From NCBI RefSeq assembly GCF_009789225.1, contig NZ_WSTA01000020.1, forward strand, positions 1 to 51,968: a DNA stretch of 51,968 nucleotides, given 5' to 3'. Each line of letters opens with the position of its first letter. The first letter of the stretch is position 1. Under the pieces are notes generated by a model that saw only the letters and a list, made by a program, of their open reading frames with translations, searched no databases and was not told the DNA's origin. The translations under genes were made by a program, and so were the position numbers. Of this stretch, positions 5,197 to 44,918 are shown in pieces. Origin of the DNA: Agromyces seonyuensis. Lineage in GTDB: Bacteria; Actinomycetota; Actinomycetes; Actinomycetales; Microbacteriaceae.

Positions 5197-5234
5197 CGAC
5201 GGGCGGCGCCCCCGGCAGGGGGCGCCGCCCGTCG
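5197..5234 (-). terminator. Strong hairpin terminator after the fused ATPase gene
   Basis: A perfect 17-bp stem (5197-5213 pairs with 5218-5234) with the 4-base loop GGCA, 12 bases past the ATPase stop. Only a weak T run (GTTTCG) follows on the minus strand, common in GC-rich actinobacteria. It separates the two importer operons. Confidence 0.75.
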
Positions 5235-11842: not shown

Positions 11843-12039
11843 GGTCGAGTAGCGGAGCGTATCGAGACCCCGAGCGGCGTCCCCCAGGGTCTCGATACGG
11901 CGCTGCGCGCCGACTCGACCAGCGAAGCGATCCCCGCCGGTCGAGTAGCGGAGCGTATCGAGACCCCGAGCGGCGTCCCCCAGGGTCTCGATACGGCGCT
12001 GCGCGCCTACTCGACCAGCGCGACGCGTATCGAGACCCC
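11843..12039. repeat. REP-like composite repeats, 96-bp period, between convergent genes
   Basis: Two nearly identical 78-bp composites (11843-11920 and 11939-12016), 96 bp apart, plus a half copy CGCGTATCGAGACCCC at 12025. Each composite is an inverted pair of units: GGTCGAGTAGCGGAG + CGTATCGAGACC, a spacer, then GGTCTCGATACG + GCGCTGCGCGC + CGACTCGACC (CTACTCGACC in the second). A single unit folds on itself through its inner palindrome, and the pair can form a long hairpin. The array starts 15 bp after the CPBP stop and ends 11 bp before the gcvP stop, so it could also act as a bidirectional mRNA end. Confidence 0.9.
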
Positions 12040-20713: not shown

Positions 20714-22057
20714 ATGACCATCACCGACACCGACGTGCGCCTCGCCGCGAGCGTCGACCGCAGCATCCGGCTCATCACGACCGGCAAGGCGTCCGGCGAG
20801 ACCTGCACGCCCGACCTCGCTGCCGGCCCGTGGGACTTCGACGCCGGCGCGCCCGGCTACGGCCCGGGCTCGTCGATGGGCGACGTCATCCCGGTCGGCT
20901 CGCCCCGCCAGGGCGCGCTCCCCGAGGCGTACCGCACAGCATCCGACGACGACCTGCACGAGCGCATCCGTGCCGCCAAGGCGACCCTCGGCGACCGCGT
21001 CGTCGTGATGGGCCACTTCTACCAGCGCGACGAGGTCGTGGCCCACGCCGACTACGTCGGCGACTCGTTCCAGCTCGCGAACGCGGCCAAGGCGAACCCG
21101 CAGGCCGAGGCGATCGTCTTCTGCGGCGTGCACTTCATGGCCGAGACGGCCGACATGCTCTCGGGCGCCGACCAGGCGGTCATCCTCCCGAACCTCGCCG
21201 CCGGCTGCTCGATGGCCGACATGGCCGACCTCGACTCGGTCGAGGAGTGCTGGGAGCAGCTCGAAGCCCTCTACGGCACCGAGCCCGACGCGGACGGCCG
21301 CGTCCCGGTCATCCCGGTGACGTACATGAACTCGTCGGCGGCCCTCAAGGCGTTCTGCGGACGGCACGGCGGCATCGTCTGCACCTCCTCGAACGCGCAG
21401 ACCGTGCTCGAGTGGGCGTTCGAGCGCGGCCAGCGCGTGCTGTTCTTCCCCGACCAGCACCTCGGCCGCAACACCGCGAAGGCCATGGGCGTGCCCCTCG
21501 ACCTGATGCCGATGTGGAACCCGCGCAAGCCCCTCGGCGGCAACGACGCCGACGGGCTCGTCGACGCCCGCGTCATCCTCTGGCACGGCTTCTGCTCGGT
21601 GCACAAGCGCTTCACCGTCGACCAGATCGAGCGCGCCCGCGCCGAGCACCCCGGCGTGCGCGTCATCGTGCACCCCGAGTGCCCGATGCCCGTCGTCGAC
21701 GCGGCCGACGGGGCCGGGTCGACCGACTACATCGTCAAGGCGATCGCGGCCGCGCCCGCAGGCACGACCTTCGCGATCGGCACCGAGATCAACCTCGTGC
21801 AGCGCCTGGCCGCCGAGCACCCGGAGCACACGATCTTCTGCCTCGACCCGGTGGTGTGCCCGTGCTCGACGATGTACCGCATCCACCCCGGCTACCTCGC
21901 GTGGGTGCTCGAGGAGCTCGTCGCGGGCCGCGTCGTCAACCGCATCCAGGTGGATGACGCGACGACCGAGCACGCGAAGGTCGCCCTCGAGCGGATGCTC
22001 GCCGCCAAGCCGCCGGCCGCCCCCGCGGGCGCGCCGGTGCCGCTCATCGGAGCCTGA
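20714..22057 (+). CDS. nadA: Quinolinate synthase
   Basis: Condenses iminoaspartate with dihydroxyacetone phosphate to quinolinate, using a 4Fe-4S cluster. It is 447 aa, the long actinobacterial form. Motifs: VVMGHFYQRDEVVAHADYVG, VFCGVHFMAETADML, LAAGCSMADM, HPECPMPV and VVCPCSTMYRIHP, which include the cluster cysteines. An AGGAG lies at the right distance before the ATG. It is followed by nadB after one base. The NifS-like protein at 24640 probably supplies its cluster sulfur. Confidence 0.97.
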   Translation: MTITDTDVRLAASVDRSIRLITTGKASGETCTPDLAAGPWDFDAGAPGYGPGSSMGDVIPVGSPRQGALPEAYRTASDDDLHERIRAAKATLGDRVVVMGHFYQRDEVVAHADYVGDSFQLANAAKANPQAEAIVFCGVHFMAETADMLSGADQAVILPNLAAGCSMADMADLDSVEECWEQLEALYGTEPDADGRVPVIPVTYMNSSAALKAFCGRHGGIVCTSSNAQTVLEWAFERGQRVLFFPDQHLGRNTAKAMGVPLDLMPMWNPRKPLGGNDADGLVDARVILWHGFCSVHKRFTVDQIERARAEHPGVRVIVHPECPMPVVDAADGAGSTDYIVKAIAAAPAGTTFAIGTEINLVQRLAAEHPEHTIFCLDPVVCPCSTMYRIHPGYLAWVLEELVAGRVVNRIQVDDATTEHAKVALERMLAAKPPAAPAGAPVPLIGA

Positions 22058-22058
22058 C

Positions 22059-23777
22059 ATGCGGGTGCTCGTGATCGGCTCGGGCCTCGCCGGGCTCGCG
22101 ACCGCGATCGGCGCGCACGACGCCGGCCACGACGTGCGCGTCGTGACGAAGGCCGCCGCGGACGCCGGTTCGACCGCCCTCGCCCAGGGCGGCATCGCCG
22201 CGGCCGTCTTCCCCGGCGACTCGGTGCAGCGCCACATCGACGACACCCTGGCCGCGGGCGCGGGGCTCTCCGACGCCCACGCCGTGCGGGTGCTGTGCGA
22301 GGAGGGGCCGGCAGCCGTCCGCGAGCTCATCCGCCACGGCGTACCGTTCGACCGGGACGCCTCGGGCATGGCCCGGGGGCTCGAGGCCGCGCACTCGCGG
22401 CCGCGCATCCTGCACGCCGGCGGCGACTCGACCGGCCGCGCCGTCGAGGATGCGCTGCTCGCCGCCGTGCGCTCGCGCGGCATCGAAGTGGTCGAGCGGG
22501 CGATGCTCGTCGACCTGCGCCTCGCGGGCGGCCGGGCCGTGGGGGCGCGGATGCTGATCGACGACGACCTCGTCGACCTCGACGCCGACGCGGTGGTGCT
22601 CGCCACGGGCGGCTGGGGGCAGCTCTACGGCCGAACGACGAGCCCCGCGGTCGCCACGGGCGACGGCGTCGCCGCCGCGCTGCGCGCGGGCGCGGCCGTG
22701 GCCGACCTCGAGTTCACGCAGTTCCACCCGACGGCGCTCGCCGTCGAGGGCGCGCCGCTCATCAGCGAGGCCGTGCGCGGCGAGGGCGCGATCCTCGTCG
22801 ACGAGTCCGGGCACCGGTTCCTGCTCGACGACGACCCGCGCGGCGAGCTCGCACCCCGCGACGTCGTCGCGCGCGGCGTGCACCGTGCCATGCTCCGCCA
22901 AGGCGGCCGTCCCGTGCTGCTGGACGCCACCGCGCTCGGCGCCGAGTTCCTCGCACGCCGCTTCCCGGGCATCGACCGCATCGTGCGCGAGCACGGATTC
23001 GACTGGGCGGCCTCGCCGATCCCCGCCGCCCCGGCCGCGCACTACGCCATGGGCGGCGTCGTCGTCGACGACCTCGCCCGAACGGGCATCCCGGGGCTCT
23101 CGGCGGTCGGCGAGGTCGCCCGCACCGGCGTGCACGGCGCCAACCGCCTCGCGTCGAACTCGCTGCTGGAGGCCGCGGTCTTCGCCGCTCGGGCGGTGGA
23201 GGGGCTCGACGCCCCGGGTCTCGCCCACGCTGGTCGAGGAGCGGCGCAGCCGCGTATCGAGACCGACGCACCAGGTCTCGATACGGCCCTGGCGGGCCTA
23301 CTCGACCGACGTGGGGCGACCTCCGCTGGTCGACGAGCGGCGGAGCCGCGTCTCGAGACCGACGCACGAGGTCTCGATACGGCCCTGGCGGGCCTACTCG
23401 ACCGACGGGGGGCGGGTCTACTCGACCGACGGGGGGCTGGCCTACTCGACCGACCCTTCTCGCGGAGCGCGCTGCAGGCGCTCATGCACGAGCACGTCGG
23501 CCTCGTCCGCGACGCCGACGGTCTGACGGCCGCACTCGCGCAGCTCGAGGCGTGGAGCGCCGACCTCCCCTCCGAGTGGGTAGTTCCTGCGGGTGCCACG
23601 CCCTCCCGACCCGCGATGCCTACCCACTCGCGAGAGGGGTTCGAGGACCGCAACCTGCTCGAACTCGGCCTCGCGACCGTGCGGGCCGCCCTCGCCCGCA
23701 CCGAATCGGTCGGCGCGCATTACCGCAGCGACGACGAGCACGCCGCGGCACTCCAACCGGTCGAGGAGGCCGCATGA
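22059..23777 (+). CDS. nadB: L-aspartate oxidase with palindromic repeat insertions
   Basis: FAD enzyme oxidising L-aspartate to iminoaspartate, 572 aa. The FAD-binding N terminus is VLVIGSGLAGLATAIGAHDA; GSTALAQGGIAAA, FTQFHPTAL and GVHGANRLASNSLLEAAVF are all present. Between the flavin domain (ends about 385) and the C-terminal helical domain (resumes about 466, FSRSALQALMHEHVG) lies a 75-residue repetitive segment encoded by REP-like DNA. A second palindrome adds about 20 residues at 503-527, just before EDRNLLELG. The frame is intact and active-site regions look normal, so I consider it functional. It overlaps nadC (ATGA). Confidence 0.95.
   Translation: MRVLVIGSGLAGLATAIGAHDAGHDVRVVTKAAADAGSTALAQGGIAAAVFPGDSVQRHIDDTLAAGAGLSDAHAVRVLCEEGPAAVRELIRHGVPFDRDASGMARGLEAAHSRPRILHAGGDSTGRAVEDALLAAVRSRGIEVVERAMLVDLRLAGGRAVGARMLIDDDLVDLDADAVVLATGGWGQLYGRTTSPAVATGDGVAAALRAGAAVADLEFTQFHPTALAVEGAPLISEAVRGEGAILVDESGHRFLLDDDPRGELAPRDVVARGVHRAMLRQGGRPVLLDATALGAEFLARRFPGIDRIVREHGFDWAASPIPAAPAAHYAMGGVVVDDLARTGIPGLSAVGEVARTGVHGANRLASNSLLEAAVFAARAVEGLDAPGLAHAGRGAAQPRIETDAPGLDTALAGLLDRRGATSAGRRAAEPRLETDARGLDTALAGLLDRRGAGLLDRRGAGLLDRPFSRSALQALMHEHVGLVRDADGLTAALAQLEAWSADLPSEWVVPAGATPSRPAMPTHSREGFEDRNLLELGLATVRAALARTESVGAHYRSDDEHAAALQPVEEAA
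23232..23451 (+). repeat. REP-like composite repeats read in frame inside nadB
   Basis: Two 76-bp composites (23232-23307, 23328-23403) 96 bp apart, then two partial units ending TACTCGACC (23415-23427, 23439-23451). The outline is GGTCGAGGAGCGGC + CGTATCGAGACC, spacer, GGTCTCGATACG + GCCCTGGCGGG + CCTACTCGACC. The 96-bp period equals 32 codons, so the protein shows a 32-residue repeat (AGRGAAQPRIETDAPGLDTA, then LAGLLDRRGATS). The same 96-bp spacing is seen at 11843-12039. Confidence 0.93.
23567..23639 (+). repeat. Second-family palindromic element inside nadB
   Basis: A long interrupted palindrome: CCCCTC + CGAGTGGGTAG, then GCGGGT, loop, ACCCGC, then CTACCCACTCG + CGA + GAGGGG (arms 23567-23583, 23589-23594, 23609-23614, 23620-23639). 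It is unrelated in sequence to the REP-like units. It is in frame and encodes SEWVVPAGATPSRPAMPTHS. Confidence 0.75.
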
Positions 23778-25951: not shown

Positions 25952-25991
25952 GCGAACGGGCCGGTCTCCCGAGGGAGACCGGCCCGTTCGC
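25952..25991. terminator. Bidirectional hairpin terminator between nad operon and VWA gene
   Basis: A perfect 19-bp inverted repeat (25952-25970 with 25973-25991, GCGAACGGGCCGGTCTCCC and its complement), 20 bp past the last nad-operon stop and 8 bp from the stop of the convergent gene. It lacks long T tracts, as is common at this GC content. Confidence 0.8.
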
Positions 25992-29390: not shown

Positions 29391-29590
29391 GGTCTCGATG
29401 CGCGGCTCCGCCGCTACTCGACCAGCGGTCAGCGGGTCGCGAGGTCTCGAGACGCGGCTCCGCCGCTACTCGACCAGCGGTCAGCGGGTCGCGGGGTCTC
29501 GATACGCGGCTCCGCCGCTACCCGACCAGCGGTCAGCGGGTCGCGAGGTCTCGAGACGCGGCTCCGCCGCTACTCGACCAGCGGTTCTGC
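29391..29590. repeat. Tandem array of REP-like units, 52-bp period, four copies
   Basis: Units start at 29391, 29443, 29495 and 29547, exactly 52 bp apart and all in the same orientation: GGTCTCGATACG (or GAGACG / GATGCG) + CGGCTCCGCCG + CTACTCGACC + AGCGGTCAGCGGGTCGCG. A fifth degenerate copy follows (to about 29612). The array fills the gap after the MFS stop, facing a convergent gene. It is not a CRISPR: there are no unique spacers. Confidence 0.92.
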
Positions 29591-29709: not shown

Positions 29710-29759
29710 AAAACCGTACGGGGGCCGAGCGACGCCGTTGTCGCTCGGTCCCCGTACGG
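29710..29759 (-). terminator. Intrinsic terminator of VWA paralog B
   Basis: A 20-bp stem with one G-U pair (29714-29733 with 29740-29759; CCGTACGG at the base, CCGAGCGAC near the loop) followed on the minus strand by TTTTGT. It lies 30 bases past the VWA stop. It is the only hairpin in the window with a clear T tract. Confidence 0.88.
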
Positions 29760-44859: not shown

Positions 44860-44918
44860 TCGAACGGTCGCACATCGTCGTCTTCGGAGGCCCGAAGCGA
44901 CGATTCGCGACCGTTCGA
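44860..44918. repeat. Long interrupted palindrome
   Basis: A 59-base structure: TCGAACGGTCGC / GCGACCGTTCGA (12 bp), then ATCGTCG / CGACGAT (7 bp), then TTCGG / CCGAA (5 bp) around the loop AGGC, with only short interior mismatches. It could end the amidohydrolase transcript (minus strand) or be a member of another palindromic repeat family. Confidence 0.7.

Follow-up and report, generated by a model that had tools for sequence, protein, structure and literature searches.

The nadB gene of the soil bacterium Agromyces seonyuensis, which encodes L-aspartate oxidase, was found to contain palindromic repeats of two families that are dispersed in the genome and lie in the reading frame of the enzyme. 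Across the genus, the interdomain linker that holds the first of these families has been occupied repeatedly by palindromes, which turn over there. Palindromes are also linked, both physically and in sequence, to genes encoding DUF559 proteins, which are predicted nucleases. The starting point was a window of 51,968 nucleotides (contig NZ_WSTA01000020.1, positions 1 to 51,968), to which the coordinates in and around nadB refer, and the comparison covered 60 genomes of an Agromyces set that includes the focal genome.

The nadB gene (22059..23777, plus strand) encodes 572 amino acids and is host to both palindrome insertions; its reading frame is uninterrupted over the whole length and the product matches TIGR00551 above the cut-off. 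The neighboring ORFs, both assigned by eye, are nadA-like (20714-22057) and nadC-like (from 23774). The FAD-binding domain comprises residues 3-369 (22065..23165, plus strand; PF00890, E 9e-85) and the C-terminal helical domain residues 469-558 (23463..23732, plus strand; PF02910, E 1.2e-12). Two inverted doublets of the first repeat family, designated family A, lie between these domains on the plus strand, at 23232..23307 (units 23232-23264 and 23274-23307) and, 96 bp after the first, at 23328..23403 (units 23328-23360 and 23370-23403). Within each 76-bp doublet, a unit of 33 bp is followed, after a 9-bp spacer, by an oppositely oriented unit of 34 bp; the start of every one of the four units is in codon phase 0. 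Repeat comparison within the window gave two further unit ends, CTACTCGACC, at 23418..23427 and 23442..23451 (plus strand), the first belonging to a 24-bp (8-codon) repeat. The preliminary description had placed two 76-bp inverted composites, 96 bp apart, and two unit ends inside nadB, and its coordinates were correct to the base. The direct repeat within nadB extends over 91 bp at a spacing of 96 with 95% identity, indicating that the doublets are separate copies and not one copy assembled twice. With dispersed palindromes in frame inside a conserved gene, nadB has the form of a protein-coding palindrome, the translated insert being a prediction from the DNA.

NadB linkers were extracted from 57 of the 60 genomes. 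Measured between the chosen anchors, the focal linker has 96 amino acids and is the longest of the 57 (range 38-96, median 54), consistent with the insertion at the domain junction that had been proposed from the focal sequence. A run of six residues identical to the focal insert was found in none of the other 56 linkers and a run of five in two, so these linkers did not give the result that would have refuted the preliminary description. The linkers of 23 relatives with no assignable palindrome measured 38-58 amino acids, with one exception at 77, and the net gain of NadB is therefore about 38-58 residues. The repetitive linker in an intact frame that had been described thus stands, with this smaller gain in place of the 75 residues first given. 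One of the predicted linker peptides is IETDAPGLDTALAGLLDR.

Family A is abundant beyond nadB. The string GGTCTCGATACG, with at most one mismatch, gave 14 matches in the window against 0.49 expected from shuffles, and its exact form was found at 177 sites per strand in the focal genome, where the reversed control gave 0. In the focal genome the longer pattern GGTCTCGATACG-N4-30-CTACTCGACC matched 143 times forward and 137 times in reverse, more often than in any other of the 60 genomes; it was present in 43 of the 60, and the reversed control gave no match. The units listed are palindromic, 27-41 bp long, of high copy number and often arranged as inverted doublets; their ends are constant and their middles variable, most of the middles being small hairpins by eye. 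Units spaced 96 bp apart also occur at 11843..12037 (plus strand), where the preliminary description had reported them near 11843-12039, and the coding filter raised no flag there. An array of four units lying head to tail, 52 bp apart, occupies 29391..29579 (plus strand); given the 52-bp spacing of its four units (29391-29558), the shared 96-bp spacing was judged to be a coincidence. A common origin read from that spacing was not adopted, as other arrays differ. Further palindromes in the window scoring above 16 are located at 5197-5234, 25952-25991, 29714-29759 and 44860-44918.

A conservative coding filter was applied to 79 distinct family A units from a subset of focal loci and flagged one of them, which is a low estimate because the nadB units themselves were unflagged. 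The flagged unit is a member of an inverted doublet at 1246-1331 of locus L363 (G000:C80, G000 being the focal genome), which is in frame with the N-terminal portion of a ccsB ORF and shares the codon phase seen in NadB. The CcsB part matches TIGR03144 above the cut-off; the doublet lies before the matched part and the ccsB start codon is not fixed, which makes this case less certain than nadB.

The second in-frame palindrome of nadB is located in the C-terminal domain at 23573..23630 (plus strand), with a core of 52 bp at 23576-23627 (GTGGGTAG..CTACCCAC). The corresponding NadB residues 507-524 are extra in the focal protein, the other rows displayed in the alignment being gapped, with four residues next to the gap in four rows. 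This 52-bp palindrome was found at 18 sites in the focal genome, at one shorter site in G041 and in none of the other 58 genomes; the loops vary from copy to copy, and the stems show paired changes. A rough GC3-based filter of stop-to-stop ORFs with starts not fixed placed 12 of the 17 other focal copies outside coding-like ORFs and the remaining five (L157, L159, L162, L163 and L167) in overlap with one. The account of dispersed REP-like units placed in frame and in tandem was therefore sound as far as it went, and is extended here by the second palindrome and the ccsB case; the event in nadB was not a lone one.

NadB may tolerate both inserts. Indirect support comes from the match to both Pfam domains and from a predicted structure in which low-confidence stretches (pLDDT<50), residues 389-460 and 514-521, coincide with the two inserts. 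Confidence in this structure is modest overall (mean pLDDT 61.8) and low in conserved stretches as well; the best PDB match of the structure was E. coli L-aspartate oxidase.

When the linkers of the relatives were inspected by eye, other palindromes were seen at the same place: C (CGGATATACGATCCG...CGGATCGTATATCCG), B (CAGGAACTTC...), D (AACTCCGGA...) and further types, besides doublets in two species that look like decayed family A. Type E (TTGCCCGACTTTC..GAAAGTCGGGCAA) is present as three tandem in-frame copies in L037 (G042) and L053 (G034). A folding z below -3 was obtained for 14 of the 57 linkers vs 3 of 223 control windows from the same loci (Fisher p 2e-8), and an inverted-repeat score with p<=0.01 for 13 of 57 linkers vs 3 of 111 controls. 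On a tree of the FAD domain made by a quick method, the palindrome labels, which were set by eye and leave 23 of the 55 rows with no assignable palindrome, require 22 changes, and the starred branches force at least three changes for A, four for C, three for B and three for D. Two rows labelled as lacking a palindrome, L050 and L060, reach an inverted-repeat p of 0.01; L032, labelled C, also has an A-like string, and when it is scored as A three separate A places remain. The longest end branch of the genus tree is that of the focal NadB, at 0.53 changes per column. In G012 (C15:125924), G029 (C18:731912) and G049 (C1:3349716) the only exact C-arm copy of the genome is the one in nadB. In the five of six Leifsonia loci that were inspected, the NadB linkers looked short by eye.

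A wider palindrome family, with the core CGACACGCC-N4-34-GGCGTGTCG, was found in 32 of the 60 genomes, with up to 14 sites, and at no site in the focal genome; the reversed control gave one match in each of four genomes and 0 elsewhere. In 30 loci, one per genome, the outer arms of this palindrome differ between loci and, by eye, are mostly complementary within a locus, the exceptions being L095, L096 and L101.

In several genomes a segment of about 1.1 kb between two C palindromes encodes a protein with AbiEi_4 and DUF559 domains, AbiEi_4 being a winged-helix-type N-terminal domain seen in the one Agromyces DUF559 protein that was scanned. Across 49 Agromyces DUF559 loci, of which 29 come from the top 30 matches in the genus and 20 are weaker matches, 59 palindromes were located no more than 350 bp from the gene (34.3 kb of sequence), two inside it (41.1 kb) and one beyond (112.7 kb). 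At least one side of the gene carried a palindrome in 38 of these loci and both sides in 16. A family-level search of 30 loci, one per genome and 29 of them outside Agromyces, gave a palindrome in 23 and palindromes on both sides of the domain in 13, vs 13 of 30 and 0 of 30 for TetR control loci of Agromyces; this control comes from one genus and the DUF559 loci from many, and palindromes anywhere in the locus were counted, a few of which (for example in L310) do not adjoin the gene.

The two sides resemble each other. Two-sided palindromes were present in 11 of 30, 7 of 21 and 13 of 30 loci of three DUF559 sets, and the mean likeness of the sides within their own locus, vs other loci, was 29.5 vs 17.4 (11 loci, permutation p 1e-4), 24.1 vs 9.0 (7 loci, p 0.004) and 28.7 vs 7.5 (13 loci, p 5e-5). 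The sides match strongly in three of the seven loci of the second, paralog set and do not in the other four; 11 of the 13 loci of the third set stand out, L310 and L317 being the two that do not. A loose pattern for a nuclease-like active-site string, some matches to which are spurious by eye, was found in 27 of 30, 17 of 21 and 27 of 30 DUF559 loci vs 0 of 30 TetR loci. The focal genome has a DUF559 gene of its own, at L149 (G000:C160), which is located between matching palindromes at 1365-1431 and 2429-2491 with CGAACGGTCGCA arms; these form a third family in this genome, and a gene held between two like palindromes in this way is referred to here as a DUF559-palindrome cassette. Core or C sites were present in 24 of 31 genomes with a DUF559 ortholog (>200 bits) vs 13 of 29 without (Fisher p 0.01, kinship ignored), a count that includes the flanks of the DUF559 gene itself and nadB. 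Among DUF559 genes of Microbacteriaceae (L172-L201 and L282-L331), locus-specific flanking palindromes with like sides are frequent.

The most serious alternative is that these flanking palindromes are operators or terminators of the DUF559 gene, and that their likeness to the nadB linkers has nothing to do with mobility. The palindromes do lie just outside the gene, and the N-terminal AbiEi_4 domain, being of winged-helix type, could bind operators. However, they are often present on both sides with locus-specific arms that are alike, and the C arm occurs at 24+18 sites in one genome. We therefore regard a purely regulatory role as unlikely, although it is the alternative that deserves the most weight.

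A relation between the DUF559 flanks and nadB was seen when the two were compared within genomes. The likeness of the nadB linkers to the DUF559-flank palindromes of their own genome summed to 520 vs 405 (sd 19) over 37 genomes, with p 5e-5 in a permutation test that ignores the relatedness of those genomes. The own genome ranked first in seven of the 37 comparisons, and the rows that bear the signal (score >=19) are G007, G047, G023, G028, G032, G041, G052 and G013. G047 and G028 are kept from first rank by other genomes whose arms are the same and whose scores are as high, and G037 ranks first with 18.0 while being labelled palindrome-less. The arms differ between species at both places and agree within the signal genomes, which is the pattern expected of concerted replacement. 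For the focal genome, the nadB repeats showed no likeness to its DUF559 flanks (score 7.5, rank 37 of 37). A search of 81 DUF559 loci found no strings of the 52-bp type and four A-like strings, every one inside the gene region.

Taken together, these observations are probably best explained by a joint reading in which a family A doublet would have entered nadB in frame and then undergone tandem duplication as part of a 96-bp block. A palindrome of the second family would likewise have entered the C-terminal domain, and throughout the genus the linker would be a spot where palindromes repeatedly land or are replaced. Both insertions would persist because they sit between folded parts of the enzyme. 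The DUF559 predicted nucleases would be the agents that spread or convert their palindromes, in the fashion proposed for RAYTs and REPs, a role suggested by the likeness between the nadB palindromes of several relatives and the palindromes that bracket DUF559 genes in the same genomes. The order of events in nadB, the mobility or conversion of the palindromes and the agency of the DUF559 protein are accordingly put forward as the presumed course, and not as observations. More tentatively, and with slightly less than even confidence, the scheme may be extended to RAYT-free Actinobacteria in general: DUF559 (Vsr-like) nucleases would power palindromes there, each gene being bracketed by its own 60-100 bp palindrome, which it would spread, and others would be overwritten by cut-and-repair where palindromes already sit. 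The NadB linker would be a long-lived protein-coding site of successive families whose sequence would have been rewritten repeatedly by selfish DNA.

The families of the focal nadB were considered separately in this respect. A search of the focal genome found no mobiliser for family A. The sole DUF559 match of this genome is flanked by the third palindrome family and was rejected as mobiliser of family A or the 52-bp family, and a search for AbiEi_4 in the focal genome gave one match below the cut-off, in what by eye is a LacI-like regulator. A different source would be REPs of the ordinary GTAG type, brought into nadB by a RAYT (Y1 transposase) as in proteobacteria. Family A has the abundance, the palindromic form and the frequent inverted pairs of such elements, and many units carry GTAG in one arm. 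However, this GTAG is internal to the unit and is not an unpaired end tag, and the focal genome, which has the highest copy number, gave no Y1_Tnp match at E<=0.001 in a search by which E. coli was positive. Subclass 1.1 of the Y1 transposase superfamily is, on our understanding, presumably distinct from the RAYT group. The sampled Actinobacteridae carry only this subclass according to the part of PMC6006769 available here. Mobilization of family A by a RAYT is consequently improbable.

Similarly improbable is the proposal that the hairpin in the linker belongs natively to the nad operon mRNA as a regulatory element, maintained by compensatory change, with only a secondary likeness to repeats. 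Many species do have hairpins at this site, with arms that are different yet complementary. The stems of the 52-bp family also covary between copies: among the 18 sequences, six pairs beyond the searched arms are changed on both sides, giving 19 covarying cells vs 8.3 in shuffles, with a value as high in 0 of 500. Against this, 23 of 55 rows lack an assignable palindrome, sister rows carry different families (L055/L069 and L032/L056), and the A and C arms are present at many other places in the genomes. An artefact of assembling a repeat-rich draft of 169 contigs is scarcely credible even for so repetitive a region, since the copies differ at several bases (95% identity), the frame is open and relatives have analogous inserts.

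If the joint reading is correct, a single spot in a core metabolic enzyme has been rewritten time and again by dispersed palindromes within one genus, and the linkers offer a natural series for studying the uptake of mobile DNA into protein sequence. In that case DUF559, a widespread domain of unknown function, would also gain a testable role, and there would be a candidate palindrome mobiliser for bacteria in which the known one was not found. Novelty is most likely for the association of DUF559 with palindromes: judged by title and the start of the abstract, none of the open-licence PMC papers retrieved for DUF559 linked it to repeats, and in the Agromyces-titled paper that was checked in a search of that text for Agromyces and palindromes, the word belongs to the CRISPR abbreviation.

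In-frame REPs are already known. The part of Di Nocera et al. 2013 (PMC3733652) available here describes REPs of the GTAG and CGTC families in frame in several genera, as single units, dimers and clusters, with some genes hit twice; clusters encode 43 to 82 amino acids in Thauera and R. conorii, and recB of two Xanthomonas species contains different REPs at about one site. The nadB case is therefore a variation on a known theme, and the two share short palindromes within genes and clusters that code for stretches of protein. The text of PMC3733652 contains no words beginning actinobact-, micrococc-, microbacter- or clavibacter-. The likeness to the gene-inserted palindromes of Rickettsia that had been pointed out initially is one of form, the Rickettsia palindromic elements (RPEs), as described in PMC3733652, being in-frame protein-coding palindromes too; a confinement of in-frame REPs to Rickettsia does not hold, going by the same part of PMC3733652. 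The host here, unlike that of the RPEs, is a high-GC actinobacterium.

As a 20-40 bp palindromic unit of high copy number that often forms inverted dimers, family A resembles the GTAG REPs. Unlike in those elements, GTAG follows GGTCGA inside the unit and is not terminal and unpaired, and this position reads GGAG in the nadB unit at 23232 and CGAG in that at 23328. The absence of Y1_Tnp matches in the focal genome and the refilling of one linker by different families across the genus also set the nadB repeats apart from intragenic REPs. GTAG REPs are known to be partnered by RAYTs, and in REPtrons and REPINs a RAYT is flanked by REPs. This layout is echoed by the DUF559 loci, in which an enzyme gene is enclosed by a pair of related palindromes that have relatives elsewhere, although the enzyme is a DUF559 predicted nuclease and not a Y1 tyrosine transposase. 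In homing endonuclease systems, cuts made by the nuclease are repaired from the sequence that flanks its own gene, and by analogy a homing-like process of cut and repair would explain the replacement of arms at fixed sites. The cutting is hypothetical here and, unlike in homing systems, what is copied would be, in place of an intron or intein, a palindrome some 60-100 bp long.
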